Assembly (NCBI GenBank): GCA_964006375.1
Contig: OZ023268.1
Coordinates: forward strand, 83,525,835-83,589,834
Source: Tillus elongatus
Taxonomy: Eukaryota > Arthropoda > Insecta > Coleoptera > Cleridae
DNA length: 64,000 bases
Direction of reading: 5' to 3'
The position numbers and the translations under genes are program-made. Numbering within the stretch: position 1 is the stretch's first letter; each line of letters begins with the position of its first letter. Of the stretch, positions 5,745 through 46,650 are shown piece by piece. The notes beneath the pieces are model-generated. The model saw nothing but the letters and a program-made list of their open reading frames with translations, searched no databases and was not told the origin of the DNA.

Positions 5745-6045
5745 ATTATTTTATAGCATAAGTACATTTGGAGATGTCCGTACATTTGCTAAATAAAAAC
5801 TCAAACAAAGCTTCACTGGTGCGCGGAAACTTCAATTTTTTTCTCCGATATATTTAGGTGGGTTTTTAGGAGATTTTTTCATTTGAGGTGATATGTCTTT
5901 AACATCACTCTCAATCCGTTATGCTGGAAGGTAAGAATAGAAGCCTCACTCCATATTTCTCCAGCGTTCGCTACCACAATGGCTGCTATTTTCTTATGGT
6001 AGGCTCTTTCTTTGTGTCTTGGCTCAGTTTTATTTTGAGACGGTT
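5745..6045. repeat. Dispersed repeat paired with 19330-19580
   Basis: The segment from TAGCATAAGTACATTTGGAG to TCTTTCTTTGTGTCTTGGCT is repeated with about 15-20% divergence at 19330-19580, on the other side of the Polinton and in the same orientation. At 19330 it abuts a reverse-strand mariner transposase remnant, so both may be mariner-derived. No intact frame. Confidence 0.6.
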
Positions 6046-6915: not shown

Positions 6916-6921
6916 CACGCA
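6916..6921. repeat. Left 6-bp target-site duplication of the Polinton
   Basis: CACGCA immediately precedes the first base of the left TIR and recurs directly after the right TIR at 18827-18832. A 6-bp duplication is the hallmark of Maverick/Polinton integration. Confidence 0.92.
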
Positions 6922-7181
6922 AGTAGGTATAGATAGGCGGTTCTAACTCCGCCACCCGCCACCGCCACCGGGCGGAGTGGCGGAACTGACCGGACCCGAC
7001 GGTCTCCGAGCTAACCCGAGCACAGGGTGGCGGACCCGACGGCCCCCGACCTAACCCGAACACAAGGTGGCGGAGCCACTGACTAGACCCGAATATCTCC
7101 GCCACCTGACTTCGTATTTAACCCGAACAAGTAGCGAACTAACCTGAGATGATGTAATCAAAAGCCAGCTAACCTGTATTA
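6922..7181 (+). repeat. Left terminal inverted repeat (260 bp)
   Basis: It is the inverse complement of 18567-18826 with only one difference that I noticed (AGCCAGCTA against AGCCAACTA). It is strikingly GC-rich against its surroundings and built from loose internal repeats of GGTGGCGGACCCGACGG and CTAACCCGAACA. The near-identity implies a recent insertion or arm-to-arm correction. A 64-aa open frame mirrored in both arms is a by-product of composition. Confidence 0.93.
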
Positions 7182-8177
7182 CGCCAGTTAAAATAACATG
7201 CGTAATAAGAAGGTAATTATTAGTAATTAGTAATAAACCACATGCCAAAGACTAACCTGGTTATTAAAATCAAATCAATTTAAAATTATCTCATTAGAAT
7301 TAATATAAATAACGTCGTATGTAGGATGAAAATTAAGTCGATCGAATTAAATGGGAACCACCATTGAAAATGACGTGAAGCACTCGTCCCAGAATAATAA
7401 TATTATTAAAGCTGTTAGTATTGGATAAAGTATAAAAAGGTATTTACTTATATTTAAAAGGATAGGAAAATTCGCTACCATACCACACTTGCTGCGTTCA
7501 GCTTATTTATGTAAAAATTGGTAGACCAACTCACCAGACATAATCACCTTCAGACATAGCTTATTTTCGTAAAACGTTTTAGTTCTCATTTTTCACAAAA
7601 AAAACTAGACACATATTGATACAAAGTCACCAACAAACCATAGCTCTATATACACAGAACTTTCTACAAATAAACACACCTTCTCGCTTCACTAAAACCT
7701 AAACACCTGTAATGAAAACACACCTATGGTTTATTTAAATGTAAGCAAACAGTAATACACTTAAACATCTGATGCATTTTAGGTAAGATTCAAAAAATTA
7801 TTAAACACATAATTGTCATGACCGCACCCGACTGATGATTTAAACTGTTATTAGCAGGCTATTCACCTAAAGCGGAAACACTTGTGATAACGGTTAATCA
7901 GCTGGTGGCTGATGTACTAATGCGTTTGCACTAAAATCATAACGTTTTATTTCGCTTCCCAGATCATATGACGGCTTTAGTTTAAATAGAGAATCGGTAG
8001 CGAATTTTTATATAAGTTATTTGGTGTAAATTATTTTATTAGAAAATTGAAATACATGTTTTTTATATCGTAAACCCACCAAATTTGTTTCTTAGACAAC
8101 GGTTTAAGGTTAGAAATAAAACACTCGATTGTAATACAATTAATTTATTAGGAGTAATAAGATTTACATACAAAATA
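7182..8177. other. Noncoding left arm of the Polinton
   Basis: About 1 kb without a convincing gene between the left TIR and the 3' end of the capsid gene. At 7471-7505 a sequence matches the terminal motif of family A (TACCATACCACACTTGCTGCG), suggesting a short nested insertion or shared terminal sequence. A reverse-strand AATAAA at 8144-8149 lies about 30 bases past the capsid stop codon and can serve as its polyadenylation signal. Confidence 0.6.
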
Positions 8178-9383
8178 TTACATAATGGCTCTTACAATAC
8201 CAGTTAGAGGTTTATATTCAAATACACAGTCATGAATAATTAAACAGTAGGCCCTAGTTCTCGGAGCAAAATTGTCTTTACTCATAAACTCCACTTTGAT
8301 GTCGACTGTTGAAGACTTGATTGATTCATTCTGGTGTTGGCAATCGATTACAAATAGAGCTCGATCTTTAAACTCATCATAATTTAAAAGAGGCTCCGAC
8401 ATGTTTTTATAGTAAAAACTTTTTTGAAAATCTGTATACATCTGGTAGGCTTCAACATATTTTGATCTTTCGAAATCCATATTCATAGCTTCATAAGGGT
8501 AGCATTCTGAATTTAGGAACACTCGTAGATCTACCATACCGATGTTATCGAAGAAGTCACCTTTTTTGCTTATGTTATCTTTCCGATCTGTTTGAAACGC
8601 TATAATCACATATCTAGGTCTTTCCAAGTTGGTTGCAGTTTTAACAGCCCACACATCTCTGTTTATATCTCTGAGTGATGGTAGCTCATATATATCCCAT
8701 TTCCGATATGCGAGAAATATAGATGTGTCTTTTGCTATTTTATCCATCAGTTCCAGCTTCATTTGATCGTTTGGAAATACATGTTTTGCTTTTAAAAACA
8801 TGTTGGTTACAGTTATCTTAGATCTTGCTGTACCTGTGCTGTAATAGCAGTTGGAATCATTTCGAGCTCTTGTAAATCGGAAAGTATGTTTACCACAGAG
8901 AACTCCTTTAAAGTGATGAAAGAAACTGAAGAGGAACCAAAGAGGTAGGAGCAAGTGAAACTTGTTATCGTTTAAGGTGATGTGATCTGATGATACATTT
9001 AACCCAGCATTGCTAAGCGATTTTGCTTCATTCTTACTAAACGAAAGCAGAGTTTTGATGTTTGTTGTGGTGTATGGATCTCGTACTCGCTCCACTTCCT
9101 TGTTATTTAATTCATAGATCATTGATTCAAACAGAGCTACTCCTCCGTTATTTGACATGTGGCAGACACCAGTAGCATTTTGTACTGCTAGAGGTTCCAG
9201 AGCACCTTCGATTATTAGAGCTGACTCTGCTAGACATACGAATGCATCTTGCTGATTGATGTTTATTTCAACTTCATCGCTGTTACCAAACGATTTAGTT
9301 GATGAATAGTAAGACCTAAGTTCTTCTCGATCAATGGAGTCGTCAAACTTGGGGTCTTTGAATATTTCTAGTTTTGATGACAT
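8178..9383 (-). CDS. Double jelly-roll major capsid protein (hexon-like)
   Basis: This predicted 401-aa protein matches the pattern of Maverick/adintovirus major capsid proteins, which trimerise into the icosahedral shell. Recognisable family blocks are NSDEVEININQQDAF and ALIIEGALEPL near the N-terminus, FESMIYELNNKEVERVRDP near residue 95, RPRYVIIAFQTDRK in the middle, and VIDCQHQNES with YCLIIHDCVFEY towards the end. The frame extends upstream to an ATG at 9410, but the ATG at 9383 (MSSKLEIF) was chosen because conservation begins after it. It is the last gene of the leftward capsid block, 122 bases below the penton stop, with a small ORF overlapping its start. At about 400 residues it is compact for a double jelly roll, but no stop or frameshift is seen. 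Confidence 0.9.
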   Translation of the reverse strand: MSSKLEIFKDPKFDDSIDREELRSYYSSTKSFGNSDEVEININQQDAFVCLAESALIIEGALEPLAVQNATGVCHMSNNGGVALFESMIYELNNKEVERVRDPYTTTNIKTLLSFSKNEAKSLSNAGLNVSSDHITLNDNKFHLLLPLWFLFSFFHHFKGVLCGKHTFRFTRARNDSNCYYSTGTARSKITVTNMFLKAKHVFPNDQMKLELMDKIAKDTSIFLAYRKWDIYELPSLRDINRDVWAVKTATNLERPRYVIIAFQTDRKDNISKKGDFFDNIGMVDLRVFLNSECYPYEAMNMDFERSKYVEAYQMYTDFQKSFYYKNMSEPLLNYDEFKDRALFVIDCQHQNESIKSSTVDIKVEFMSKDNFAPRTRAYCLIIHDCVFEYKPLTGIVRAIM

Positions 9384-9504
9384 GATAACCAAGACTTTTA
9401 AGGAATTCAATATTATCGGAACGAAGTGTATGCTTCAAAGGAGCTGATTGTACTAAATTTGTTTTGGTAGATTCGCTTGCTTTTATATCTTTAAAGACTA
9501 GCAT
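9343..9504 (-). CDS. Small 53-aa ORF between penton and capsid genes
   Basis: An ATG one base after the penton-like stop codon (TAG-A-ATG) opens a 53-codon frame that overlaps the first 41 bases of the capsid gene in another frame. The product is basic and hydrophilic, with a segment HTLRSDNIEFLKSLGYHVI that looks like a real short motif. The tight coupling and the otherwise unused gap argue for a gene, perhaps translated by reinitiation. I recall similar short peptides near capsid genes of related elements but cannot verify this. Function unknown. Confidence 0.55.
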   Translation of the reverse strand: MLVFKDIKASESTKTNLVQSAPLKHTLRSDNIEFLKSLGYHVIKTRNIQRPQV

Positions 9505-9505
9505 T

Positions 9506-10222
9506 CTAGGCAATCTTTTTAAGCTCTAAGCGAACAGACACCTCTTCACCTTGAAAGTTTACAGGAACTGAATCTTGATCCACGATGTCGATGCTTATAT
9601 TTGAAATCTCTCGTTTGTTTACTGGTAAATAAATTAGATTCTTAGGTTCTATATCGATTGCATAACCAGGATCGACCATCGGTGCAAACTCATATAACGT
9701 ATGTGAAGGTTTTCCATTATAGTAAGAACCAGACACAATATTAGTTTCTATACGAATCTGTTTAACATCCACTATTTCAACAGGTAAATCAGATTCATGG
9801 AAGACACCTGGTTGAAGAACTTGCTTTGAAAATCCCAGCATTCGCCCAATCGAATCATCAGATTCAAAACTGATACTTGTGAAACACTTTATTTCACATC
9901 TAATGGTGTTGGGATTAGGTCTTAGAATCAAAGCTAGCTGCTTTTGTTCACGTGTTGCTGTAGCACCAACAAGTTCATTTTGAAGCAAGTTTTCCAAATG
10001 TGTTATTTCATATGCACCAGTAGGTATCGTGATGATTCTCCAAGCAGCTCCTTCTTTTACATAAAATTTATTTTTACCTTTATATATGTTAGGTATGTTG
10101 TTGTATGTGTGAAAACCTATCAAAGCAACTGCATAACTACCACCTGGATCCAATTCAATTGGAGGATCGTAGTCTGTTGACAGATGACAACTTCGATCTT
10201 TCAACGTGAAGGTTTGCGACAT
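9506..10222 (-). CDS. Minor capsid protein, penton-like (single jelly-roll)
   Basis: This 238-aa protein has the pattern of the second conserved virion protein of animal Mavericks/adintoviruses, thought to form the fivefold vertices. Family features are an N-terminal FTLKDRS strand, a Pro-rich turn (DYDPPIELDPG), FHTYNNIPNI at residues 37-46 and IPTGAYEI at 66-73; the remainder is beta-rich. It starts at ATG 10222, 17 bases below the protease stop, and ends one base before the small ORF. It would act in capsid assembly with the major capsid protein. Single jelly-roll is the family expectation, not something I can see directly. Confidence 0.85.
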   Translation of the reverse strand: MSQTFTLKDRSCHLSTDYDPPIELDPGGSYAVALIGFHTYNNIPNIYKGKNKFYVKEGAAWRIITIPTGAYEITHLENLLQNELVGATATREQKQLALILRPNPNTIRCEIKCFTSISFESDDSIGRMLGFSKQVLQPGVFHESDLPVEIVDVKQIRIETNIVSGSYYNGKPSHTLYEFAPMVDPGYAIDIEPKNLIYLPVNKREISNISIDIVDQDSVPVNFQGEEVSVRLELKKIA

Positions 10223-10238
10223 GACTGAAACACAGATA

Positions 10239-10613
10239 CTACCGTTTAAGGCTTTTATTTAAAAATTTTAAACATAAATGACCACAATTATAAGTATTAT
10301 ATTTCTGATACACATCATGATTGTACATTAGAGTAGAGTCTTTAAGGTAACGCTGCAGCTCAACTGGTGGCTTCAAGTTTCCATATGAGTCAAAGTACAC
10401 GGCTGTGTCACCACGTTTCTTAACTGCAACCCAATGACTGCCAGGTTCCTTGTTTGTTTGCAAATTCATGATAAGTGATTCATTCTTGCGTGGCCCATTC
10501 GATGGCAAAGTATCTCGCATGTATACACCTCTAAAATATGGAATTTTCATTTTACCAGCAAATTTCACAAGGTCTTCATTTGTTAGAGGTCTTGCTGGTA
10601 AACATCTTACTCG
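10239..10613 (-). CDS. Adenain-like cysteine protease, probably reached by -1 frameshift
   Basis: Adenain-type proteases cut capsid and core precursors during particle maturation. The catalytic set is present: His in GSHWVAV, Asp in YFDSYGN, and Gln seven residues before the Cys of NCGHLC, the adenain spacing. The conserved PYFRGVYMRDTLP precedes them. The frame has no ATG in the expected N-terminal region: a stop lies just upstream in frame, and the first ATG falls within the conserved part (at 10550). The frame continues back through the end of the PLA2 gene and meets it at an A_AAA_AAC slippery sequence, so coordinates begin at the first codon after the slip. Alternatives are initiation at 10550 or the GTG at 10568, splicing, or a homopolymer error. 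Confidence 0.85.
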   Translation of the reverse strand, partial: RVRCLPARPLTNEDLVKFAGKMKIPYFRGVYMRDTLPSNGPRKNESLIMNLQTNKEPGSHWVAVKKRGDTAVYFDSYGNLKPPVELQRYLKDSTLMYNHDVYQKYNTYNCGHLCLKFLNKSLKR

Positions 10614-11428
10614 TTTTTTGGTTTCTGCAAATACAACCCATAACCGCTACGCTGCTTCTTCAGATATAATCCTTTACCGAGTCTCTTATACTTTGGTTTT
10701 AATTTCAAACCATTACCTCTCTTACCCATAGCAATAGCCTCCATCGTTTTGTTATGCCGTTCTTCTTCTTCTAGTTTTTGTTTGGCTGATTTGGCATCGT
10801 TAACTGCTTTAGCAATGCCTGCAGCACCACCACCCAGAGCACCTAGCGCTGACAGGCCACCAAAAATTAAAGGTAGTAGTGGAAGGAAGCCTCCGCTTTT
10901 AGGTATTGGAATAACTCGCGGTTTCAGCACATTCTTACGCCCACCAATCTGTTTAACAATTGCGTGAGCGATATCAAACACGGCATTCTCTGATGGAATA
11001 AGATTTCTGTCTTTTATAACTTCTCCAATCAGACTAAGAATGTTTTTAAAGGGAACTTTTTTCCTCGGTTTTGAGTTGATTACATCAAGACCCATACCAA
11101 GCTTTCTTTTAACTTTCATAGTGTTTGTAACACCCCAAGCAGCTAACTTTTCACCAAAACTTGCGTCCTTTGACTTGACTCTCTCCCAAGCCCGATTCTC
11201 CAACACTTCGTCGGCTCGATGCCTATCACTTAATTCTTTTGATTGAGAGTAAGCGATGTCGTGGTCTCGACAAGCACGATCTAAAGGATTGATACCTTGA
11301 TCACCTCTAGCAAGACGTTCTTTAAGTTTAGTACCCGGGCCACAAAATTGATAACCAGGAACGTGCAGCTCAACAGGTAGCTTGTTAATGGCTGTGTTTA
11401 CAAGACCTTCACCCTGTGACACCAACAT
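10607..11428 (-). CDS. Phospholipase A2-domain minor capsid/entry protein
   Basis: The N-terminal part of this 273-aa protein is a parvovirus VP1-type secreted PLA2 domain: calcium loop YQFCGPGTKL (26-35) and catalytic PLDRACRDHDIAY (48-60) with the His56-Asp57 pair. In parvoviruses this enzyme lets particles leave the endosome, and adintoviruses carry a similar domain; the same role here is inference. Residues 180-208 are Gly/Ala/Leu-rich and hydrophobic, possibly membrane-active. A charged coiled region follows, then a basic tail with two GLYL repeats (GKGLYLKK, GYGLYLQK), resembling adenovirus-like core/minor capsid tails. It is the first gene of the leftward block, starting beside the divergent promoter and ending at the slippery site. 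Confidence 0.9.
   Translation of the reverse strand: MLVSQGEGLVNTAINKLPVELHVPGYQFCGPGTKLKERLARGDQGINPLDRACRDHDIAYSQSKELSDRHRADEVLENRAWERVKSKDASFGEKLAAWGVTNTMKVKRKLGMGLDVINSKPRKKVPFKNILSLIGEVIKDRNLIPSENAVFDIAHAIVKQIGGRKNVLKPRVIPIPKSGGFLPLLPLIFGGLSALGALGGGAAGIAKAVNDAKSAKQKLEEEERHNKTMEAIAMGKRGNGLKLKPKYKRLGKGLYLKKQRSGYGLYLQKPKNE
10613..10619 (-). promoter_or_regulatory. Candidate -1 ribosomal frameshift site (A_AAA_AAC)
   Basis: The heptamer fits the X_XXY_YYZ rule in the PLA2 reading frame: the last A of a CCA codon, then AAA and AAC. The PLA2 stop follows one codon later. A -1 slip enters the protease frame exactly, without another stop. Downstream stimulatory RNA structure is not obvious by eye. 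A possible splice donor (A|GTAAG) begins three bases downstream and offers an alternative way to join the frames. Confidence 0.6.
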
Positions 11429-11505
11429 TGATACTAACTGTGTGATCCGCTTACATGTCTATATTTATATACATACTCGAAAAATATAGTTTAGTTCCAG
11501 TCAAG
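11429..11505. promoter_or_regulatory. Divergent promoter region between capsid and ATPase blocks
   Basis: Only 77 bases separate the PLA2 start codon (reverse) from the preferred ATPase start (forward). They contain TATATTTATATA at 11459-11470, a TATA-like element usable in either orientation. Both virion-assembly blocks would start here, which would co-express structural and packaging genes. No initiator is assigned. Confidence 0.5.
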
Positions 11506-12198
11506 ATGCACACCATCAAACACGCTTCTGTCTTACCTATTACAAATATAGACGATGTTGTTGATACAGCAGAACAACAACTAAGGCATGGTCCTCTCTT
11601 CCCAAACACAGTTAGAGGTATCATATGTGGTCCTAGTGGGTGTGGTAAAACAAATGTTATGTTAAGTTTATTGTTTGAACCGAACGGTTTAAAGTTTGAT
11701 AACGTGTATGTGTATTCAAAGTCTCTGTATCAACCTAAATATAAGATGTTACAAAGGGTGTTGGATGCTACAAAAAGTGTTGGTTATTATCCATATAGTG
11801 AAAACGATGAAATATTAGATCCAGCAGAAGCCCAGGACAACTCGGTGTTTATATTCGATGATGTGGCTTGTGACAAACAAGATAAAATGAGAGCATACTT
11901 TAGTATGGGGAGACATAAGAATATTGATTCATTCTATCTCTGTCAAACATATACTCGAATACCCAAACATCTGATACGTGATAACGCTAACGTTTTGATT
12001 CTCTTTAAACAAGATGAAACGAACTTAAAACACATCTATGACGATCATGTGACCACTGATATGGACTTTAAACAATTTAAAAATATATGTTGTCAATGCT
12101 GGAATGGTAATAAGTATGGTGTGTTGGTGATTGTAAAAGAAAACGAAGTCCACAGAGGGAGATATAGAAAAGGATTCGATAGCTACATATTAATCTAA
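11506..12198 (+). CDS. FtsK/HerA-type DNA-packaging ATPase (A32-like)
   Basis: The predicted 230-aa protein is the genome-packaging ATPase typical of Mavericks and relatives. The Walker A motif GPSGCGKT lies at residues 42-49 and the Walker B motif VFIFDDV at 114-120. A MGRHKNIDSFYLCQTYTRIPKH segment follows, in the position of the conserved Gln/Arg sensor region of A32-like ATPases. The frame opens at 11455 with another ATG, but that would overlap the TATA-like sequence; the ATG at 11506 has better context (AAGATGC). It would power DNA entry into the procapsid. It is the first gene of the rightward block; a 430-base spacer with a minisatellite follows. Confidence 0.92.
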   Translation: MHTIKHASVLPITNIDDVVDTAEQQLRHGPLFPNTVRGIICGPSGCGKTNVMLSLLFEPNGLKFDNVYVYSKSLYQPKYKMLQRVLDATKSVGYYPYSENDEILDPAEAQDNSVFIFDDVACDKQDKMRAYFSMGRHKNIDSFYLCQTYTRIPKHLIRDNANVLILFKQDETNLKHIYDDHVTTDMDFKQFKNICCQCWNGNKYGVLVIVKENEVHRGRYRKGFDSYILI

Positions 12199-12630
12199 TG
12201 GTCTACAACCAACAACAACAAAGAGATGTCTAGCAGGACAACCAACCAGCTAACAAGACAGACAACCTGTCTAAAACAACCTGTCTAAAACAACCTGTCT
12301 AAAACAACTTGTCTAAAACAACTTGTCTAAAACAACTTGTCTAAAACAACCTGTCCAAAACAACTTGTCCAAAACAACTTGTCTAAAACAACCTGTCTAA
12401 AACAACCTGTCTAAAACAACCTGTCTAACAACCTGTCTAACAACCTGTCTAACAACCTGTCTAACAACCTGTCTAACAACCTGTCTAACAACCTGTCTAA
12501 CAACCGGGTCTACCTGTTGTGTTAGATACCTAACACTAGATAGGCAGACATACAACCAATTCAAAGCTAGTACACCTTAAACCACCGAACTGTTTGCATC
12601 TCTTAACACGAAACAAATAACTTTAGCAAG
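12199..12630. other. Spacer downstream of the ATPase
   Basis: No gene. It contains the minisatellite at 12262-12504, flanked by short unique sequence. Confidence 0.6.
12262..12504 (+). repeat. Two-phase minisatellite (14-bp then 11-bp units)
   Basis: About eleven copies of a 14-bp unit (CAACCTGTCTAAAA with CTT and TCC variants) are followed by about seven copies of an 11-bp unit (CAACCTGTCTA) that lacks three of the A's. The units lie directly head to tail with no spacers. Confidence 0.93.
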
Positions 12631-13665
12631 ATGGAGGTGATGAGTAACCAAGAGAGAAAAATTAAGAAAAAGATTTTACAACTTGCTGAAAACATTCGAA
12701 AAAAACATTTAATGCTTAAGCTTGGTAGAGCTGAGAATGATGAAGCCCTGCAGCGTTTATATAAACCACTTGTTGACCCACTGAGTGAAATATCTAAAAA
12801 TACATCAACGCTTAAACTGCAGTCACCAGCTGAACAAATCAAAGAAGAAGCGGTACCAGAAAAGAAACCCAAAGTTGAGTTCCTTAAAGACCATGAAGTT
12901 TTTGAAGCCGAACCAGAAGTAGAGACAAGTTTTGATGAGGATATCCCAACATTTGAAGAGCTTGAGGCAGATCTACAAACTGTCACAAACAACCCAGCAT
13001 ATCAAGAATTTTTGGAGCAATATCCTGAACGAGTTCGATATTATGTAGACAAGTATTTTACTGAACCACCGAGGCTTGCTACTATTGATCAAACGTATGG
13101 TGCTCGCTACGCTAAAGATACTGGTAGTTGGAGTCTTGGCAATAAACACTTGGACTTTACTGATAATGACATTCGACTAGGTCAAAGGAGATATCCGCAA
13201 ACACAAGGTCTGCTAGAATTGATATTTATGAAAACACCTAGAGGGTATACCTATGACGATCTTCAACACTATAGAGATATTCTAGAAGCAACTAGTGTTC
13301 ATAAAATGAACTACGATCCCAACGCACGAACCAAGGGTTGTTCCTCGGAAAAGTATTTGACTCTAATAAAACCAGTTATAAACCCAAGAGGACGAAGATC
13401 CTCAACTCCTCAAGGTTTTGGTTACGACACACATCATAACGCAGAACAAAAAACTGAACCTAGAGCTCAGAATGTAAGCAGCAACACTAACAACTATATG
13501 ATACAAAATAACAAACAAATAGAATATGTCTATTGGGATGACATAAATGAGTTGGTTGATAGACTTAGACTTTTAGTAGCTTCCCAAGCTGCTGGTAATA
13601 ATGCTCATAACAATGAAATTCAGTCAATCATTGAAGAACTGAAGGAGGTTGGTGTTATCGCCTAA
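12631..13665 (+). CDS. Conserved Maverick protein of unknown function (DUF8207-like)
   Basis: This 344-aa protein begins in good context (AAGATGGAG). The first 130 residues are charged and helical, with a Lys-rich start and an acidic stretch (EAEPEVETSFDEDIPTFEEL). The middle has a Tyr/Pro-rich globular part with PRGYTYDDLQHYRDIL. The end, EYVYWDDINELVDRLRLL followed by an Asn-rich turn and IIEELKEVG, is a C-terminal signature I recognise from arthropod Maverick-associated proteins (I believe DUF8207). No enzymatic motif is visible. Its position between packaging ATPase and integrase suggests a virion or core role, which is inference. Confidence 0.75.
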   Translation: MEVMSNQERKIKKKILQLAENIRKKHLMLKLGRAENDEALQRLYKPLVDPLSEISKNTSTLKLQSPAEQIKEEAVPEKKPKVEFLKDHEVFEAEPEVETSFDEDIPTFEELEADLQTVTNNPAYQEFLEQYPERVRYYVDKYFTEPPRLATIDQTYGARYAKDTGSWSLGNKHLDFTDNDIRLGQRRYPQTQGLLELIFMKTPRGYTYDDLQHYRDILEATSVHKMNYDPNARTKGCSSEKYLTLIKPVINPRGRRSSTPQGFGYDTHHNAEQKTEPRAQNVSSNTNNYMIQNNKQIEYVYWDDINELVDRLRLLVASQAAGNNAHNNEIQSIIEELKEVGVIA

Positions 13666-13714
13666 TATACCTACATATATCACAGATATACCTACCTTAG
13701 TGCTTAGTATAAAA

Positions 13715-14164
13715 ATGTCTATCGATAAGTTCGGACGTTCCCAGCCCAATAAAGGTTCTAAGTTTAAAATTATTGAAAGAGAGATTTTCCCAAGAACTGA
13801 TAGTGGTGATTTTGATTTGCAAAGCCATAGATTGTGTAACATCGCTGATCCAGTCGATGCAACAGATGGTGTAAATAAAAAATTTGTTGATGTATGGATA
13901 GACGACTATCAGAAGAACAAAGATGAGGTAAAACAAAGAATCATTGCCATACTACTTGCAGCTGTACACAAACCTGAGTTGGAAGATTTAAAAAACGAAT
14001 TTGAAAATAAATTGAAAAGTTTAGCTAAGGACATAACTGCTCAAGTTTTAAAAGACATTGATCTGTCAAAGAATAACAAGTTAAAGAAGAAGTTGGGTGA
14101 AATAGACAACAAACTAAAAGATTTACATAACAAGTGGATACTCTTAAATCCATCATCACCATGA
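13715..14164 (+). CDS. Tail-fibre-motif protein with C-terminal coiled coil
   Basis: A 149-aa product starts at ATG 13715 (AAAATGTC). The frame is open from an upstream ATG at 13649, but that would overlap the preceding gene. Residues 34-59 read DLQSHRLCNIADPVDATDG then VNKKFVD, a close match to the repeat found in phage tail and head fibres, which mark the start of a trimeric shaft. The rest (about 65-145) is a highly charged Leu/Lys/Glu helical segment consistent with a coiled coil. An attachment-fibre role would fit, but only one motif supports it. Its stop overlaps the integrase start as ATGA. Confidence 0.6.
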   Translation: MSIDKFGRSQPNKGSKFKIIEREIFPRTDSGDFDLQSHRLCNIADPVDATDGVNKKFVDVWIDDYQKNKDEVKQRIIAILLAAVHKPELEDLKNEFENKLKSLAKDITAQVLKDIDLSKNNKLKKKLGEIDNKLKDLHNKWILLNPSSP

Positions 14165-15105
14165 AACGGAAAATAGTTGAACCATCTGATGCTAAAAAAC
14201 AAATAATTACTGAGTTATACACACCAGCACGAATCAACTTCAAACGTAGACGTACAATAATCAAAGGTTTAAATGACTTGTGGCAGATTGATTTAGCAGA
14301 GTTTCAAGACTACTACAAAGCAAACTCTGGTTACAAATACATTTTAGTGGTTATCAATTGTTTTTCAAAGTATGTGTGGACTCGTCCGCTTAAATCTAAA
14401 AATGCTGAAGAGGTGACTAAAGCTATGGCTGATATTTTATCTAATAGTACAACGCCCTCTAACGTTCAATCTGATCTTGGTAAGGAGTTTTATAACTCAA
14501 AATTTAACGCCTTAATGAAAAAATATAACATCAATCACTACAGCACTTATAGTGTGAAGAAGGCTGCAATGGTGGAAAGAGTTATACGTACCTTGAAAGA
14601 GAAGATATATAAAAATTTCAACTTGATTGGCTCCTACACGTGGTTTAATACACTACCTGATGTCACTGCTACTTACAACGCTACTGTTCATCGAACAACT
14701 GGTGTAAAACCTCAAGATGTTAACAAGAAAAATGAAAAAGCTATTCTGAAACAAGTTTACTCAAATCTGAAAGTGTTTAACAAAAATAAATTTAAAGTGG
14801 GTGATGTTGTACGTATAAGTAAAGCAAAAGCTCAATTTGAAAAGGGGTATACACCTCGCTGGTCAACAGAATTATTCAAGATTGTTAGTGTTCATTTCAC
14901 AAATCCAGTAACATACTTTCTTGAAGACATGCAAGGCAAGCCTATCAGTGGAGGATTTTACGAGGAAGAACTACAAAAGACTAAACAAACAGACATCTAT
15001 CTGGTTGAACGCATCTTGAGGAAGAAAGGCAAGAAACTCTATGTAAAATGGTTGGGTTTTGATAAATCTCAGAATTCTTGGATAAATTCAGATGATGTTA
15101 AATAA
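14161..15105 (+). CDS. Retroviral-type DDE integrase with chromodomain
   Basis: This predicted 314-aa Polinton integrase catalyses insertion and generates the 6-bp target duplication. The catalytic acidic residues are Asp44 in WQIDLAEF, Asp105 in QSDLGKEF and Glu139 in MVERVIRTLK. A central SH3-like region (FKVGDVVRISK) and C-terminal chromodomain (YLVERILRKKGKKLYVKWLG) follow; chromodomains of this type may steer integration to modified chromatin. The start at 14161 is preferred over 14134 because of its CACCATG context and the ATGA overlap with the upstream stop. No HHCC zinc domain is seen, as I expect for this family. Two AATAAA signals lie 30-40 bases past the stop. Confidence 0.93.
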   Translation: MKRKIVEPSDAKKQIITELYTPARINFKRRRTIIKGLNDLWQIDLAEFQDYYKANSGYKYILVVINCFSKYVWTRPLKSKNAEEVTKAMADILSNSTTPSNVQSDLGKEFYNSKFNALMKKYNINHYSTYSVKKAAMVERVIRTLKEKIYKNFNLIGSYTWFNTLPDVTATYNATVHRTTGVKPQDVNKKNEKAILKQVYSNLKVFNKNKFKVGDVVRISKAKAQFEKGYTPRWSTELFKIVSVHFTNPVTYFLEDMQGKPISGGFYEEELQKTKQTDIYLVERILRKKGKKLYVKWLGFDKSQNSWINSDDVK

Positions 15106-15214
15106 GCTTATATATTTAATGTATTAATGTACTTAGAATAAAATAAAAGTCTTTATTAAAATAATGTTATTTTATTTTTTCATCTGGTTACATACAATTA
15201 AGCTAAGTGAACAA
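15106..15214. terminator. Convergent polyadenylation region
   Basis: Forward AATAAA signals at 15137 and 15142 serve the integrase block, and a reverse-strand AATAAA at 15171-15176 serves the KilA-N gene. Both transcription blocks end in this 109-base gap. Confidence 0.65.
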
Positions 15215-16153
15215 TTACAATTTATGTCGTAAATCAATAATATCCTGAATAAACTTCTCCTGAGGTACATCTGCTATCTGTAGATCGTTTCTATTCGTCT
15301 TGAGGTATTTTACTTCGGTCTTTATTCTGTTAAAGAGATTTACAGAATTTGGATCATACAACATGTTTAAAACTACTTCGGAATCAGGGTGTTTATTTTT
15401 AAAGTTCTTGACAGCTCTTTTAAAACTTTTCTTCTGAGTCCTTACAGCATGATATGGATAGGTAGCATCCTTCTCATTTCTTGAAAGCAAACCAAAAACA
15501 CAAAGTTTTCCAGGGTTGCTTGGTTTTGGAGATATATCTTCTAAATGTTCTGTGATTTTAGCATTTGTTTCTCGCATACGCTGCACTTCATCATCTATCT
15601 CCATTAATTTCACTTCAATTTCTTTGAGGTTATCCTTGTATTTTTGATTAAATTCACTTACGAAAAAATCAAAAATAATTTGGTTGCACTTTTCATAGAA
15701 ACTATTGGATATCCAACAGGCTAAATTTAATATCAAATCTTTACAGACATATGTACCAGATATCAAGTTGTTTTCAGTCTGTGTTCCACCAAAGTCCACC
15801 AAGTATGTAGCGGTTGTAGGTGTTAGTTGAGATGTTGCTTCCGGCACATCTAGGGGGCCGGAATTCCGGCCCCCTAGATGTGACTCTAAGTGGACACCTT
15901 CGGTTGAAATATTTAGGGTATCGGTATTCCGGCTACCTAACTGTTTCTTTAGCCGACCGTTGTAATAGACAATCAACTCTTTAGTTTTCTTATTTTCCAG
16001 CCAATGTCTGAATCTTTTCTCACCATCTTTACACAGCTTAGTCGCATTAAAATAACCAGTGTTTTTATCAATAATTAATTGAAAGTCTCCAAATAAACCA
16101 TACCAGAAGTTGTCTTTAATTTGCTGGTAGCACACATCACTTAATGTAGCCAT
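15215..16153 (-). CDS. KilA-N domain protein with DUF3627-like C-terminus
   Basis: The predicted 312-aa protein joins a KilA-N DNA-binding domain (YFNATKLCKDGEKRFRHWLE near residues 34-53; second half ISGTYVCKDLILNLACWISN near 131-150) to a coiled coil (about 165-205) and a C-terminal domain like that of insect DNA virus KilA-N/BRO proteins (CVFGLLSRNEK onward, about residue 218). Such proteins are common in ascoviruses, iridoviruses and poxviruses, probably as regulators. The loop between the halves of KilA-N is unusually long and carries two DNA palindromes encoding a repeated peptide. The start at 16153 (AAAATGGC) is preferred over 16174. It occupies the place where PolB would be expected. 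Confidence 0.82.
   Translation of the reverse strand: MATLSDVCYQQIKDNFWYGLFGDFQLIIDKNTGYFNATKLCKDGEKRFRHWLENKKTKELIVYYNGRLKKQLGSRNTDTLNISTEGVHLESHLGGRNSGPLDVPEATSQLTPTTATYLVDFGGTQTENNLISGTYVCKDLILNLACWISNSFYEKCNQIIFDFFVSEFNQKYKDNLKEIEVKLMEIDDEVQRMRETNAKITEHLEDISPKPSNPGKLCVFGLLSRNEKDATYPYHAVRTQKKSFKRAVKNFKNKHPDSEVVLNMLYDPNSVNLFNRIKTEVKYLKTNRNDLQIADVPQEKFIQDIIDLRHKL
15845..15882. repeat. Perfect 38-bp palindrome inside the KilA-N gene
   Basis: Each 19-base arm reads CACATCTAGGGGGCCGGAA, with an EcoRI-like GAATTC centre. It is GC-rich in an AT-rich gene and adds whole codons, so the frame stays open. Confidence 0.95.
15914..15939. repeat. Second, diverged palindromic unit in the KilA-N gene
   Basis: This 26-base imperfect palindrome (TAGGGTATCGG, centre, then CCGGCTACCTA) is related to the perfect one about 60 bases away. 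Both encode variants of the peptide LG-x-RN-x-x-x-L, indicating duplication of one insert. Confidence 0.8.
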
Positions 16154-16277
16154 TTTAAACACACTACTGAGCACTTGGATACGTTAGAGTTAACTGAAGC
16201 ACGTCTTACCTCTACGACAACTAAATTTTGAATGAGTTTGACAGTGTGTAGTGAACAATTTATAGATGTTGCTACCA

Positions 16278-16778
16278 CTACGGTTTGAAGCTGTATTTAT
16301 TAATATTTATTTCCAACCACATTAGCTGTTCCAACATCCATCCGCTTTCAGCTTCTGCAAACTCCAAAGCTTTTGTGTAAATTTCGTCGACGAATTCTTG
16401 ATATATACTTTCAAAATTAGTTGACACTGTAACATTTTTATTTTTAGTATTAAATGACTTCATTTCTTTTTTATTTCGACTTTGGAGTACATACAAACCA
16501 AACAATTCTAAATTCATTTTAATTTCATTATGCTTAGCTAAAGCAGCTTCCATCAGATGAAACACTTTATGTCTTATTGTTTCCATAAACTGTTTAATAT
16601 CAATACCTTTTTCGTATATACGATAGGTAGCCATTCTGTTTTTAAAAGCTTGAGTTAACATCTGCACTTGTTCAACTTGCCATGGTTCACATACTTTTGA
16701 TTTATGAATTTCACTACGTAAATGCCCAGAGAAAGCACTCTTTTTCACTTGTAACGAGCACGATTCACAGTATCTCAT
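16278..16778 (-). CDS. Zinc-finger protein resembling the N-terminus of Maverick PolB
   Basis: The 166-aa protein starts with a C2H2-type finger (C4, C7, H19, H25). A helical region follows (QMLTQAFKNRMATYRIYEKG), then EIKMNLELFGLYVL and SGWMLEQLMWLEININKY. This order matches what I remember of the first part of arthropod Maverick DNA polymerases, whose protein-primed polymerase body would continue directly after the final block. Here the frame stops four residues later (SFKP), and nothing like the exonuclease or polymerase motifs follows. It could be a truncated polymerase retained as a separate DNA-binding protein, or a remnant that has not yet decayed. The zinc finger is seen; the PolB relationship is recognition from memory. 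Confidence 0.6.
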   Translation of the reverse strand: MRYCESCSLQVKKSAFSGHLRSEIHKSKVCEPWQVEQVQMLTQAFKNRMATYRIYEKGIDIKQFMETIRHKVFHLMEAALAKHNEIKMNLELFGLYVLQSRNKKEMKSFNTKNKNVTVSTNFESIYQEFVDEIYTKALEFAEAESGWMLEQLMWLEININKYSFKP

Positions 16779-16838
16779 CTTAACTATAGGTGCTTAACTA
16801 ATGAATAAAAACACAAATCTTCAGCTTATATATCTTTA

Positions 16839-17270
16839 TTAACAAAAATGTTTACGATAGACACCTTTAAGTATAGTGTTATATTTAAAACAAAAGTACA
16901 TCAGCATAAATATAGCAAGACATATAAGAAAACCAGTTGACATAAACATAGAAATATACTTTGAAGTGAACAGATAAGAATCGGTTAATATGAGAGTTCT
17001 CCAATCAGATGTCTCATTACGGGTACCATTATCAAACAAGAACATAAGTTTATAGCGCACCATATCACTCCTAATTTTGGACATGTTATATGTTGAAACT
17101 TCAATCACCTCATCGTTGTGTAGATGTGTTCTTGAAAGTCCAGACCATTTCATGCAGCCGTCGCAGTCGAAACAGATTCGCACTTCTTTCACATTTGGTG
17201 GTTTGTAGATATAAAATACATTTTGACATAGTGCTGTCAGGATGATAAAACTTGCTTCAAAATGGCCCAT
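16839..17270 (-). CDS. Predicted type I membrane glycoprotein
   Basis: The 143-aa product has a hydrophobic N-terminus (ASFIILTALCQNVFYIY) fitting a signal peptide, an ectodomain with a cysteine cluster (ICFDCDGCMKW) and several N-glycosylation sequons (NMS, NGT, NET), a C-terminal membrane helix (MSTGFLICLAIFMLMYF) and a short basic tail. The ATG at 17270 was chosen over 17342 because it places the signal peptide at the start and removes overlap with the upstream gene. A reverse AATAAA overlaps the stop codon (16835-16840). No family is recognised. It could be a surface or envelope-type protein acting with its upstream neighbour, 29 bases away. Confidence 0.65.
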   Translation of the reverse strand: MGHFEASFIILTALCQNVFYIYKPPNVKEVRICFDCDGCMKWSGLSRTHLHNDEVIEVSTYNMSKIRSDMVRYKLMFLFDNGTRNETSDWRTLILTDSYLFTSKYISMFMSTGFLICLAIFMLMYFCFKYNTILKGVYRKHFC

Positions 17271-17299
17271 TGTATATCGTATGTATTTCTTTAAAACGC

Positions 17300-18058
17300 T
17301 TAAGTATTTGTTTCTGCAAAGTGTAAACACTCTAACATGCAAACTCGGAATGATGGGTCCTGATCTTTCAACATAATATTTATAAGCTTTACTATTTCAT
17401 CGTCACGTGGTAGCTCCTTCTTATTAACACATTTGAGAACATCAGCGACACAATAGAGGAAGTCGCTAAGTCGAATATCAAAGTTAAAATTAGTTAGAAA
17501 CTTCACCTTTTCGTTGATGATTTCAACCAGATCTAGTAGTTGTTGAACTGCATCTTCGGTTAAATAAAAAGTAGTAGAATCATCTGAGATTGATATACCT
17601 CTACTGTCTAAAATTTTAATAGGTTTGACAGTACATACTCCAATATTTTCAGGTTCAATCGTATTACCTTTGGTAAAGTATTCTTTAGCTGCTTTTGTTA
17701 GTGTTGAAATAAAATAATCCCACTCCCAGGAGCCAGATGAGATTGTTATATTTGGATTTGGCGGATACGGACTATTATTTACAATCTTAATTATTGGAAT
17801 CAATCCAGCAGCGTTTGATATACCAATTGCAACACTTAGAGAGGGGTTAACAGTATACCTTGTTTCCAACAGCATTCTACTTTCTTGCTTAATCTCAATA
17901 ATATTCTGGCGCATAGCTGCATCAACTTGACCCCAATAACAATTTTCACAAACACTGTTATTAGCAGATCTGAAGGACTCAGGTCCATCGTTAACATCGA
18001 TACCATACATGTTGAACAGAACACTACTATAACTACTAAGAATAACTACTGTGAGCAA
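17300..18058 (-). CDS. Putative secreted or membrane protein of unknown function
   Basis: This 252-aa protein is the first gene of the right leftward block. Residues 1-17 are hydrophobic and could be a weak signal peptide. A CENCYW motif and sequons (NNS, NNS, NIT) follow. Residues 73-93 (SLSVAIGISNAAGLIPIIKI) are apolar and rich in Ala, Gly and Ile, resembling a membrane-inserting segment. The C-terminal half is helical and charged. I do not recognise the family. Pairing with the next gene, a clear membrane protein, suggests a two-component surface module, but this is inference. Confidence 0.6.
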   Translation of the reverse strand: MLTVVILSSYSSVLFNMYGIDVNDGPESFRSANNSVCENCYWGQVDAAMRQNIIEIKQESRMLLETRYTVNPSLSVAIGISNAAGLIPIIKIVNNSPYPPNPNITISSGSWEWDYFISTLTKAAKEYFTKGNTIEPENIGVCTVKPIKILDSRGISISDDSTTFYLTEDAVQQLLDLVEIINEKVKFLTNFNFDIRLSDFLYCVADVLKCVNKKELPRDDEIVKLINIMLKDQDPSFRVCMLECLHFAETNT

Positions 18059-18566
18059 ATTGTAGACTGATGTGCTTGCATGTCACTCGGTGTTTTTATA
18101 ATTATATCCCCACCTTTGATTTAAAATTATCAACCTTTTATACAAAAAAATTCTGGAGTTTTATCTATTTCATATGACTTTAAGGTCATTCAACGGAAAT
18201 AAAACCACAAACAGGAAATATGAACTGCTCACAAGGTTATTTCAACAGCTGCAAGGAAAATATGTTGGCTACCAAGGTTAATTTCGGGAAATGCTAAATA
18301 TAGTCATAGTTGGAAGCGATATCGCGGCTACCACTAGATGTATTGTTGCCAGCTCTACTTTCAACAGATTCTTTAAATCAAACCGATTTCAATAAGACTT
18401 AAGAATATAAATTTTTTATTGTACACATGTACATATGTTAAATTTGAATTCTGCTTACCTAGAGGAGTGATATGACACCAAACACGTAGGACTTTAACCA
18501 ACAAATAAAAAATTGCTTGTGCGCATGCGCTAGCCGCCATGTTTAAATGGCGGTTCCTCGTTTGCC
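18059..18566. other. Noncoding region between the right block and right TIR
   Basis: No gene is visible in these 508 bases. It lies upstream of the right leftward block and holds the motif cluster at 18519-18553. Confidence 0.6.
18519..18553. promoter_or_regulatory. NRF-1-like palindrome with paired YY1/Pho-like sites
   Basis: GTGCGCATGCGC (18519-18530) matches the palindromic NRF-1/erect-wing consensus. Immediately after, GCCGCCATGTTTAAATGGCG holds two inverted GCCAT cores of YY1/Pho type. The cluster lies 14 bases inside the right TIR and about 460 bases upstream of the first gene of the right block. Confidence 0.4.
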
Positions 18567-18826
18567 TAATACAGGTTAGTTGGCTTTTGATTACATCATC
18601 TCAGGTTAGTTCGCTACTTGTTCGGGTTAAATACGAAGTCAGGTGGCGGAGATATTCGGGTCTAGTCAGTGGCTCCGCCACCTTGTGTTCGGGTTAGGTC
18701 GGGGGCCGTCGGGTCCGCCACCCTGTGCTCGGGTTAGCTCGGAGACCGTCGGGTCCGGTCAGTTCCGCCACTCCGCCCGGTGGCGGTGGCGGGTGGCGGA
18801 GTTAGAACCGCCTATCTATACCTACT
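18567..18826 (-). repeat. Right terminal inverted repeat (260 bp)
   Basis: It is the inverse complement of 6922-7181 and ends CCTACT, followed at once by the CACGCA duplication at 18827-18832. Confidence 0.93.
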
Positions 18827-18832
18827 CACGCA
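18827..18832. repeat. Right 6-bp target-site duplication of the Polinton
   Basis: CACGCA, identical to 6916-6921. Confidence 0.92.
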
Positions 18833-18929: not shown

Positions 18930-19330
18930 AACGCACTTACTACATCATTTCGGCAACCATTTGATACCTCTTAAAAATATTCTTTCGGGTTGTCCTCAAA
19001 GTGTACCCAAACTGCAGCCTTCACCTATTCGTCATCACTGAAATGGCGCAAGCTAAGTTTTTTTTTCCAATACGTAGTAGTCAATGGGGCCCATATCTGG
19101 ACTATACAGAGCGTGATCAATTTGTTCGAAACCGCACTCACGAACTGCGGATTGTTGGATTCAGTATTGTCATGGAGCAAACGCACTCCTCTGGTCAGTT
19201 TCCGAAGTCTTTTCTTTCAAATATTTTGTCGTAATTTATGCAGGAGGGTTGCATAATATGCCGGGTTGACTTTGGTATTGCGTTCTTTAAAGTCTATTAG
19301 AAGAATGCCTTCACAATCCCAAATAATTAT
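18930..19330 (-). pseudogene. mariner-type transposase remnant
   Basis: Reverse-strand translations show pieces of a mariner DDE transposase: WDCEGILLIDFKERNTKVN near 19320-19265, LLHDN near 19190 and a degraded ALYSPDMGPIDYY block near 19100. Stops and frameshifts separate them, so it is inactive. It lies about 100 bases beyond the Polinton end in the pre-insertion DNA. Confidence 0.65.
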
Positions 19331-19580
19331 TATTTTGTAGCATAAGTACATTTAGAGATGTCCTTACATTTGCAAGATAAAAAGTCAAACAAAACCCTAC
19401 CGGTGAAACTCTTCAAATTTTTTGTAAGATATATTCAGGGTAGATTTTTTCATTTAAGGTGATATGTCTATAACATCACTTTCAATCCGTTATGCTGGAT
19501 ATTTCTCCAATCTTCGCCACAAAAATGACTGCTATTTTCTTTCAGGTGGGCTCTTTCTTTGTGTCTTGGCTCTGTTTTAT
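19330..19580. repeat. Dispersed repeat paired with 5745-6045
   Basis: Diverged copy of the segment on the other side of the Polinton (shared TAGCATAAGTACATTT and TCAATCCGTTATGCTGG). It adjoins the mariner remnant and may belong to that element. Confidence 0.6.
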
Positions 19581-19736: not shown

Positions 19737-19924
19737 CTATGGTGACTTTAACCGCTTTTCAAACTCATCCACAGAATAAAAACACCGTGAATATAAATAC
19801 TGTCTGAGCTCCTTCTCGAATTGTGCCACAGTATGACAATCCATAAAATGGTTAGACGGCAGATTAAAATAATAAGAACCGGCATATAATAGCGATCTTT
19901 TATAAAATAAATGATTAGGTTTAT

Positions 19925-20008
<84 letters not shown>

Positions 20009-20830
20009 CCGTAAAGCCAATGTTATAGGTATGTAAATTATAATTATGGGGATCATTTTTTTTTATACATAACACATAGCTTCAGTGAATAAACCTCAAC
20101 AAGTGTCCAAATTTTATTATTTTTGAAAACCTCCCGACAAGATTCCTGAAACTTTAGATTAAAAATTAGGCCCATAATGCGTTTTTGATGAAGAAGAACC
20201 GTAGCTGTATCGCCACGGTACCAACGTTATAATTTATAGCTGAAAATCCAAGAGCATAGTCCGCAGTCAACAGACCTTCTAAATTAGGGTAGATCTTTAA
20301 AGTCATTTGCTCAGCCCTGAGCTGACTGCATCCACATTACTGTACCAGGAGAAAACTCTGTCAATTATTGTTTCCAGAGATGATGTGGAGACAACAGAAG
20401 TTAAAGACCTGCTGCTGAAGTTAATACTAATATCAACACGTCGACTCAGCTTAGTTTGAAAATGCACCAATCGTGTTTTGACATAATTAATAATCATACT
20501 GTTTTCCATACACCAGTCGCTAAATTTCTGCAAAACGTTATTAATTTTGTTATAAAGAGATGGAATATTTGAGGCTGACACTAAAATTGACGTATCGTCA
20601 GCGTACATTAATACCATTACCTTTGATATATGTTACGGTAAGTCGTTAACATAAAGCAAGAACAGCAGCGGGGCTAAAATGCTTCCTTGTGGGATGCCAG
20701 AGTTTACGACTTTAAGTTTTATAAGGCATTACTGATCCAAGGAACAAGTCTTCGGTTAGACAGAAATAGAATCCAGTTGTTCAAATTTCCTCTAATTCCC
20801 ATATAATACAGAGCCATAATTTGTCGTATC
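19737..20830 (-). pseudogene. Non-LTR reverse transcriptase fragment
   Basis: Reverse-strand pieces read, from 20830 downward: a region ending GSILAPLLFLLYVND, the active-site box MYADDTSILVSA (near 20600), DWCMENSMIINYVKTRLVHF, and after a gap a C-terminal tail with YKRSLLYAGSYYFNLPSNHF (near 19890). A TA microsatellite (19931-20006) has expanded inside it. This is a decayed insect-type LINE RT; the clade was not determined. Confidence 0.72.
19931..20006. repeat. (TA)n microsatellite
   Basis: TA tract inside the LINE remnant. Confidence 0.95.
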
Positions 20831-27100: not shown

Positions 27101-27866
27101 CAATCTCCAACTGAAATGCGCCCCAGTCTGCGCTCGACTCCCTCCACCTTCTATATGGAATTTTATCTATTATTTCAAAATTAATGTTATATCCAATAAT
27201 TATTGGCAAATGGTCCGAGCCGAGCGATTCCTGCAGCACATTCCATGACAATTTACTTGTTATCGATTGTGAAGCGAAAGTTAGATCAACTGCTGACGGA
27301 GACTCTGTAGGTCTTGCGATCCTAGTGGGGGTTCCATCGTTTAAAATATTTAAGTTAAAATCTTCAGTGATATCTATTAAAATGTTACCAGAGGTGTCGC
27401 AATTTGTACTGCCCCAAGACGCATGATGACTATTAAAATCTCCGCCAACAATAAGATCCATTTTACACACTATATCTAGGAATTGTTGCCATTGTCTATA
27501 CGTTACGTTAATGTTTGGAGGGCGATACAAACTCAATACATTTAATTTAAGATTTAAGATTTGTACACCACATATGTCAATTCGATCTGGTAAGCACTGT
27601 GGAAAGTTTAAAATAGAATAAGATAGATTGCTTTTTATTAATATGCCAACTCCTCCACCCTTTCCAGATGCTCTATCTTTCCTTACAAAATTATAATTTG
27701 GAAATTTTAATTGGTCATTGGAGTCTAACCAAGTTTCGCTAAGCAAAACAATATCAATTTGTTTCCCATTCAATAACCGGGATAAGTTATGTCGATTTTG
27801 TTTAATAGAACGACAATTCCATTGCAAAATAGTAAGTCCCTCAACTCTATTAGTATTGACTGCCAT
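24127..27866 (-). pseudogene. I-like LINE ORF2: endonuclease, reverse transcriptase, RNase H
   Basis: The first 1,020 residues are open. The apurinic-type endonuclease shows ILQWNCRSIKQNR, LLSETWL, GGDFNSHHASWG and LGSDHLP; the RT shows SGYRPLSLMPCTAKVYEKM, FVDLRSAFDAI, GLPQGAILSPTLF and IQYADDVCIYV; RNase H begins at HIYTDGSKMENGTG. A frameshift near 24810-24830 and another near 24590 break the RNase H domain and C-terminal region; the rest continues in other frames (WIKGHSGIRGNELADLLAKQ, then a cysteine-containing tail ending near 24127). The ATG at 27866 is the more likely start; one at 27899 would overlap ORF1 further. Confidence 0.88.
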
Positions 27867-45939: not shown

Positions 45940-46650
45940 TGATTTTGATAAAATTTGGCATGTACGTTTCTTTTGTAAATAGCTTGGATAAGTTGGTTAG
46001 TCAGGAAAATCGGACGAGGTTTTCCGGGAAAATTTTGAGTTTTCATTCGAAAAAATTCTTATCTCAAAAAGTAATAAGCTGATTTTAATAAAATTTGGCA
46101 TGTACCTTCCTTTTGTAAATGGCCTTGATAAGTTTGTTAGCCAGGAAAATCGGACGAGGTTTTCCGGGAAAATTTTGAGTTTTCATTCGAAAAAAATTCT
46201 TATCTCAAAAAGCAATAAGCCGATTTTAATAAAATTTGGCATGTACCTTCCCTTTGTAAATGGCCTTGACAAGTTTGTTATCCAGGAAAATCGGACGAGG
46301 TTTTCCGGGAAAATTTTGAGTTTTAATTCGAAAAAAAATTTTATCTCAAAAAGTAATAAGCCGATTTTAATAAAATTTGGCATGTACCTTCCTTTTGTAA
46401 ATGGCCTTGATAAGTTTGTTATCCAGGAAAATGGGACGAGGTTTTCCGGGAAAATTTTGAGTTTTCATTCAAAAAAAATTTTTATCTCAAAGAATAATGG
46501 GCTGATTTTGATAAAATTTGGCACGTACCTTCCTTTTGTAAATGTCTTTGATAAGTTTGTTAATCAGAAAAATTGGACGAGGTTTTTCGGAAAAATTTTG
46601 AGTTTTCATTTGAAAAAAATTTTTATCTTAAAAAATAAAAATTCTATGAT
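45940..46650 (+). repeat. Five tandem 141-bp units inside family A
   Basis: The phrase AAAATTTGGCATGTAC recurs at about 45950, 46092, 46233, 46375 and (as GGCACGTAC) 46516. The length is a multiple of three, so a 189-aa repetitive frame stays open by chance. Confidence 0.88.

Follow-up and report, generated by a model that had tools for sequence, protein, structure and literature searches.

Structure and gene content of the element

Positions 6922 to 18826 of the window analyzed here (64,000 nucleotides from Tillus elongatus; coordinates without a contig name are positions in it) hold an 11,905-bp Polinton with virion genes and an integrase gene and with no gene for a family B DNA polymerase (PolB). 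Elements with the same layout recur throughout the genome, where they coexist with 19-kb Polintons that share their ends and have a polymerase-type open reading frame (ORF). An earlier note on this DNA had described the element as intact, and this was confirmed. The terminal inverted repeats (TIRs; 263 nt) are 99% complementary with 254 of the 255 outer bases matching, the duplication CACGCA stands on both sides, and the ORFs are open. The capsid, protease, PLA2, ATPase and integrase genes named in that note all exceed the curated Pfam cut-off; the models found above it are PF21738, PF02902, PF08398, PF04665, PF00665, PF04383 and PF12299.

The lack of PolB was likewise borne out. The largest ORF of the element has 410 codons, and a tblastn search of the 64-kb window with the polymerase ORF of the 19-kb elements (the "long form") gave no match, which rules out a polymerase split among frames of the window. 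No domain of other replication proteins (helicase, PolA, primase fusions) exceeded the Pfam cut-off in the 12 ORFs of the element. Besides the genes listed in the earlier note, there are a KilA-N gene, the terminal-protein-like ORF166 and two ORFs adjoining the right TIR. The features are as follows.

6916..6921, left target-site duplication, CACGCA
6922..7184, plus strand, left TIR, 91-99% identical to the TIRs of the 19-kb elements compared
7185..7957, left noncoding subterminal region; its homolog in the 19-kb element is the polymerase-side end, with 7400-7957 inverted (blastn)
8178..9410, minus strand, major capsid protein with double jelly roll (PF21738, E 8.2e-77)
9506..10222, minus strand, putative penton-like minor capsid protein, from position and homology to the 19-kb element
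10239..10568, minus strand, Ulp1-type cysteine protease (PF02902, 23.6 bits against a cut-off of 20.7)
10607..11428, minus strand, PLA2-domain protein (PF08398, E 6e-12)
11455..12198, plus strand, A32/FtsK-HerA-type packaging ATPase (PF04665, E 1e-8)
12234..12505, tandem-repeat array of 12- to 14-bp units between the ATPase gene and ORF344
12631..13665, plus strand, ORF344, no assigned function, counterpart in the 19-kb element (about 42%)
13649..14164, plus strand, ORF171, weak match below cut-off to a phage tail-fibre N-terminal domain (PF03906, E 0.0025) and to PHROG tail families
14134..15105, plus strand, retroviral-type integrase (PF00665, E 5e-12, 46.3 bits against a cut-off of 32.6)
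15215..16174, minus strand, KilA-N/DUF3627 protein (PF04383, E 3e-23; PF12299, E 4e-20)
16278..16778, minus strand, ORF166, separate ORF related to the stretch (by position the terminal-protein region) that precedes the polymerase ORF in the long form
16839..17342, minus strand, ORF167, with a C-terminal stretch that is hydrophobic, 80% identity to its counterpart in the 19-kb element
17300..18058, minus strand, ORF252, no assigned function, 23% identical to a 298-amino-acid (aa) ORF of the 19-kb element
18115..18563, right subterminal region; this and the TIR match the 19-kb elements compared at 93-98% identity
18564..18826, minus strand, right TIR
18827..18832, right target-site duplication, CACGCA

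The gene that the earlier note called penton-like has a homologous ORF in the 19-kb element (50% identity) and no Pfam match over the cut-off, so the name is kept here on position and homology. The capsid ORF reads 410 aa from a TTG or 401 aa from an ATG, the start read in a sister copy, and the protease ORF reads 109 aa from a GTG, its start codon being uncertain. The integrase ends in a chromodomain-like stretch, with PF00385 below its cut-off. The KilA-N gene lies on the integrase side, the place taken by the polymerase in the 19-kb element. Direct repeats at 5745-6033 and 19329-19580 (86-95% alike in matching blocks) flank the element, which seems to have inserted between two copies of an older repeat.

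Multiplied copies and 19-kb relatives with the same ends

The host assembly (1.72 Gb, 30 contigs) was searched with the TIR and the genes; C1 to C9 denote its contigs, and short coordinates such as C8:36.19 are in megabases. We use "window type" or "window lineage" for relatives of the 11,905-bp element. Both the gene and the TIR censuses hold the best-scored matches of longer candidate lists, and all counts are lower bounds. Left-TIR matches (the best 40 scored of 772 candidates) and pairing of TIRs by position gave elements of ~10.8-12.2 kb and ~19.1-19.7 kb, with a few others of 5.9, 7.4, 9.4 and 14.2 kb. Where read, the ends of the 7.4-kb element contain none of the genes of either form, and the ends of the 5.9-kb element contain just fragments of the 298-aa ORF and of the stretch preceding the polymerase. 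All 11 TIR-paired elements checked, of both forms, had perfect 6-bp duplications that differed from one another, and thus each is a separate insertion of the whole unit. In 8 of these elements, the two TIRs agree at 254 or all of the 255 bases compared.

Window-type capsid genes numbered at least 102 (from 7,337 candidates); they were 99-100% identical, and none of the 102 had a stop. The lists further held at least 124 integrases, 125 KilA-N genes, 150 ORF166 genes and 103 long-form capsid genes. At least 45 polymerase matches came from the best 42 scored of 1,820 candidates, and 19 of these are stop-free over 1,082 or more residues. Among the matches listed, a polymerase lay within 20 kb of 20 of the 103 long-form capsid genes and of none of the 102 window-type capsid genes (Fisher p 6.9e-7), the nearest to the latter being 73,867 bp away; no window-type capsid, integrase, KilA-N or ORF166 gene listed lay within 46 kb of a polymerase. 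A listed integrase accompanied 53 of the 102 window-type capsid copies. Of the remaining 49, seven were read; integrase and KilA-N are present in five of these, and the other two are inverted pairs.

All 13 integrase-side neighborhoods that were read had KilA-N and no polymerase. Eight belong to the window lineage (the window itself, L024, L030, L037 with L060, L038, L040, L041 and L042), one to a recombinant (L032, KilA-N broken) and four to a related lineage (L036, L045, L055 and L056). The short element at C5:175.68 follows the gene order of the window element: KilA-N adjoins the integrase, and a polymerase is absent. A TIR-bounded sister copy at C4:16.26 has the same layout except that the penton-like gene is missing and the protease gene is incomplete. 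The earlier note had proposed looking for repeated polymerase-less copies, and these are present as separate insertions. An assembly collapse or a private deletion is ruled out by the same layout at many chromosomal places, with separate duplications where checked; we give such an origin practically no credence.

The note had also proposed looking for a PolB element with the same TIRs, and PolB-type elements with these TIRs are present. Eight elements were read in pieces, and four of them, at C8:36.19, C3:61.47, C1:218.29 and C9:67.00, are 19 kb long with a polymerase-type ORF beside the integrase. This ORF has 1,083 aa and is open in the first two and interrupted in the other two. Three 19-kb elements, at C8:36.19, C8:42.58 and C3:61.47, have TIRs 95-99% identical to those of the window and an open polymerase ORF. 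The ORF has, in order, at 250, 399, 561, 660, 805 and 909, what we take to be family B exonuclease and polymerase motifs. A five-motif pattern, devised after the sequence was seen, was met by none of 20,000 shuffles. At 59 and 162 it has Cys and His stretches, in the place that PMC11071308 gives for the vOTU protease domain of protein-primed PolB (pPolB). We have taken the ORF as a putative pPolB on these motifs rather than on a profile match.

ORF166 aligns with the stop-free stretch directly upstream of this polymerase ORF (54 identities in 153 aligned columns), with a score of 224 against a shuffled mean of 30 (standard deviation, 5.2), in both long copies tried. The long element has this related region and a separate ORF166, and the short element has only the separate ORF166. 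In PMC11071308, the replication-priming terminal protein is assigned to the domain preceding vOTU; adenovirids and one coral polinton, from Stylophora, encode it as a gene of its own. Because ORF166 aligns to the region so assigned, the short element seems, from position and sequence, to keep its own priming protein while being without the polymerase; the relation of ORF166 to pPolB presupposes that the 1,083-aa ORF is pPolB. A single-sequence structure model of ORF166 reached a pLDDT of 39.5 and, like the model of ORF252, was too low in confidence for a fold search, and the KilA-N protein gave no useful match to solved structures.

The two forms have diverged unevenly. At the protein level, the window element and the long form are 42% identical in capsid, 50% in penton-like protein, 72% in ATPase, 75% in PLA2, 88% in integrase, 84% in ORF166, 80% in ORF167 and 23% in ORF252. 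In blastn comparisons of the window with three 19-kb copies, the ends were 91-99% (TIR), 93-98% (right end, 18115-18830) and 91-93% (left end, 6922-7352) identical; the core was 84% identical in the integrase and 79-80% in the ATPase-PLA2 stretch, and the capsid gene gave no blastn match. The core, from the penton-like gene to the integrase, is inverted between the forms relative to the ends. With a diverged and inverted core between nearly alike ends, the window element is not a simple deletion of the long form, an origin that these two features and the capsid identity rule out for the window lineage.

Ratios of nonsynonymous to synonymous change (dN/dS) between the short and long forms were 0.12 for ATPase, 0.15 for integrase, 0.18 for ORF166, 0.21 for the penton-like gene, 0.23 for PLA2 and 0.29 for ORF167. 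Against the L035/L036 lineage, the window gave 0.096 for capsid (dS 0.70), 0.13 for penton-like and 0.13 for ATPase; against L024, the integrase gave 0.15. With these values, the capsid genes of the two polymerase-less lineages (window and L035/L036) show purifying selection, with the caveat that recombination makes the polymerase-less state of each branch over time uncertain.

Palindromes, a recombinant and further polymerase-less lineages

An element at C6:28805624-28818144 (L057, L043, L059 and L058) is a palindrome with window-type capsid genes and a 6-bp duplication. Its arms show no mismatch over the 3,242 nt examined (outer 1,377 plus 768 plus 1,097 nt) around a 39-nt center, and its TIR is 79-84% like that of the window. 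A second candidate, at C9:103.66, was recognized by gene order only. Seven pairs of capsid or KilA-N genes in the lists are no more than 13 kb apart, and all seven are inverted. Fold-back copies of this kind are a product of linear genomes with protein-primed ends, as in the defective genomes of adenovirus. The 14.2-kb element at C7:63348697-63362868 (L031 and L032) is a recombinant of a long-form half and a window-type half, without a polymerase ORF and with the ORF167/298-aa end module on both sides. It joins halves of both forms, so the two forms meet in one cell. Taken together, the palindromic copy and the recombinant suggest a shared linear replication.

Two further lineages also lack the polymerase. 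The first is a polymerase-deleted long form with one common junction in all six copies read, which are 99.6-99.8% alike over that kilobase, have a full-length integrase without stops and fall among 38 listed capsid copies of equal score. A bounded copy (L046 and L044) lies at C1:36870669-36889351 with the duplication GGTCTG; the L044 region also holds a KilA-N fragment and two internal TIR-like ends. The second has a capsid 87-88% like that of the window, has KilA-N and lacks the polymerase and the ORF166-ORF167-ORF252 module. Its integrase is cut to 47 residues by one junction in all three copies read, on three chromosomes (L045, L055 and L056); in the relative L036 the cut differs from this junction. 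A bounded copy (L045 and L047) lies at C1:39010856-39021922 with the duplication CATGTC. The bounded copies of both lineages have TIRs of a second type, longer than 0.65 kb, 94-95% alike within each element and 84-88% like each other over the main matches. Thus, two unrelated capsid types sit on one end type, as those of the window and the long form do on another, and ends and capsids have been exchanged.

The genome also has at least 77 scored loci of other, PF03175 polymerases, many of them open and multicopy and some in inverted pairs ~12 kb apart. Among the matches listed, no capsid, integrase, KilA-N, ORF166 or 1,083-aa-type polymerase gene lay within 20 kb of these 77.

Elsewhere in the window are an AT-rich hairpin at 19914-20021 (two 54-nt arms, 87% complementary) and a non-LTR retrotransposon at 24801-29244 with endonuclease, reverse transcriptase and a weakly matching RNase H; its upstream ORF matches no Pfam model. 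Further reverse transcriptase fragments lie at 369-839, 31594-32451 and 51114-52046. An ORF at 46100-46669 has about four repeats of a ~47-residue unit and is probably a tandem repeat array.

Proposed source of the polymerase and relation to known systems

We lean, by a little more than even confidence, toward a nonautonomous, capsid-encoding Polinton lineage that takes its polymerase in trans from the 19-kb Polintons with the same TIRs and uses its own capsid and integrase. Such an element would replicate as linear DNA from the shared terminal repeats, with the protein-primed polymerase coming from the 19-kb Polintons of the window's TIR type. ORF166 may act as a terminal protein encoded by a separate gene, priming or marking these ends, and the KilA-N protein may be a regulator. 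The DNA would then be packaged by the element's own capsid, presumably into particles, and reinserted by its own integrase. The satellite reading of the earlier note is partly supported, insofar as polymerase-less copies and same-TIR, polymerase-type relatives coexist; reliance on a helper and the formation of particles are parts that we infer.

Several observations weigh against this reading, which draws on genomic sequence. The 1,083-aa ORF was not recognized as PolB by Pfam (none up to E 10), NCBIfam or PHROGs, in searches whose HMMER filters may lose a weak profile match, and by sequence it had no match among solved structures or phage records. Any of the PF03175 loci might be a polymerase source. 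Among the matches listed, 83 of the 103 long-form capsid genes have no polymerase within 20 kb (the six read are polymerase-deleted), and 24 of the 45 polymerase matches have no long-form capsid gene within that distance. The second TIR type shares only its outer 8 bases with the TIR of the window, so the two lineages that bear it have no evident helper in the 19-kb elements that share the window's TIR. The integrase and ORF166 are not strictly required in cis, since lineages devoid of them have multiplied as well; in addition, the two inverted pairs among the seven window-type capsid copies read lack an integrase. Direct rather than inverted pairs occur for ORF166 genes at C8:30.41 and for polymerase genes at C5:102.22. 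The ends do not stand out cleanly from the core, since the protease stretch at 10200-10600 is also 91% alike between the forms. Constraint between close copies looks weak, at low dS, on KilA-N (dN/dS 0.58 against L035/L036 and 0.28 against L024) and on ORF252 (0.48 against L024).

The elements might instead be passive nonautonomous transposons, amplified in trans through their ends only, with genes that hitchhike, stay open through a recent burst and form no particles. The multiplication of a lineage without the polymerase, most of the integrase and the ORF166-ORF167-ORF252 module fits this, as do the TIR-bounded C4:16.26 copy with its missing genes and the short TIR-bounded elements of 5.9 and 7.4 kb; most listed window-lineage capsid copies are nearly identical, so little time has elapsed. 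However, the low capsid dN/dS at a dS of 0.70 against the L035 lineage, together with the penton-like and ATPase values, argues for long-term selection on virion genes, and we consider passive amplification unlikely, if worth serious attention. A helper other than the 19-kb elements, be it a different Polinton family in the genome or some exogenous virus, would agree with the many open PF03175 loci and with the second TIR type on two polymerase-less lineages. Against it, the TIRs and subterminal DNA of the 19-kb elements are 91-99% identical to those of the window lineage, with which these elements have also recombined, and we judge such a helper improbable. Movement by integrase only, as cut-and-paste or with copying by a host polymerase and no protein-primed replication, could account for the open integrase and the 6-bp duplications, but a perfect palindromic copy and a multiplied integrase-broken lineage are unexpected under cut-and-paste, and we rate it as very improbable.

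The simplest account of the whole is a family served in trans by polymerase and partly by integrase, in which capsid genes are kept and a helper is presumably needed. A broader proposal, which we put forward tentatively and think doubtful as a whole, is an all-Polinton helper-satellite system in one animal-type genome. Full elements would give the polymerase; satellites would have their own capsid, a detached terminal protein, KilA-N, shared ends and self-packaging. The polymerase would have been lost repeatedly, two TIR types swapped and the capsid held under selection. If this is true, the polymerase is a shared good among the Polintons of one genome. Coexisting lineages with common ends make it testable which genes are needed in cis or in trans and whether the capsid stays under selection once the polymerase is gone.

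Polintons are called self-synthesizing because they have their own polymerase, and virion formation by them in animals is unsettled. Our literature search, mostly outside subscription journals, gave no report of coexisting polymerase-bearing and polymerase-less, capsid-keeping Polintons with common ends; a search for relatives in viral contigs gave only short ATPase motif matches at four loci and was uninformative. The element resembles Polinton/Maverick elements of the animal adintovirus type in its TIRs, 6-bp duplication, rve integrase with a chromodomain-like end, double jelly roll capsid, Ulp1 protease and packaging ATPase. It differs from the autonomous ones in having KilA-N on the integrase side and no pPolB in cis, for which reason we do not class it among them, and from its PolB-bearing relative in the inversion of the core relative to the ends. 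Like virophages and capsid-bearing satellite viruses, it has its own capsid gene and would be replicated by another element; unlike them, its would-be helper is a Polinton relative in the same genome with the same terminal repeats, on which it may depend. Nonautonomous transposons are similar in having multiplied copies that lack one enzyme, presumably a needed one, and share ends with complete elements.

Partial gene loss is known in Polintons as well. PMC4028283 gives nine capsid-less Polintons that also lack protease and ATPase; here the opposite half was lost and the virion genes stay. Polinton-like viruses, protist endogenous viral elements and "meldvirus" chimeras have capsid genes without pPolB and have other or unknown replication proteins or no integrase (PMC11071308, PMC10120064, PMC11071296). 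In contrast, our element retains its integrase, showed no other replicase and shares its genome with PolB-type elements that have the same ends. Amplified defective vertebrate Mavericks, described in PMC8097293, are degraded and occur in hundreds of copies with pPolB broken by stops or frameshifts, whereas here the polymerase gene is wholly absent and the other genes are open. Finally, a terminal-protein region as a gene of its own recalls the adenovirids and the Stylophora polinton (PMC11071308), from which our system differs in that the long element has both the related upstream region and a separate ORF166.

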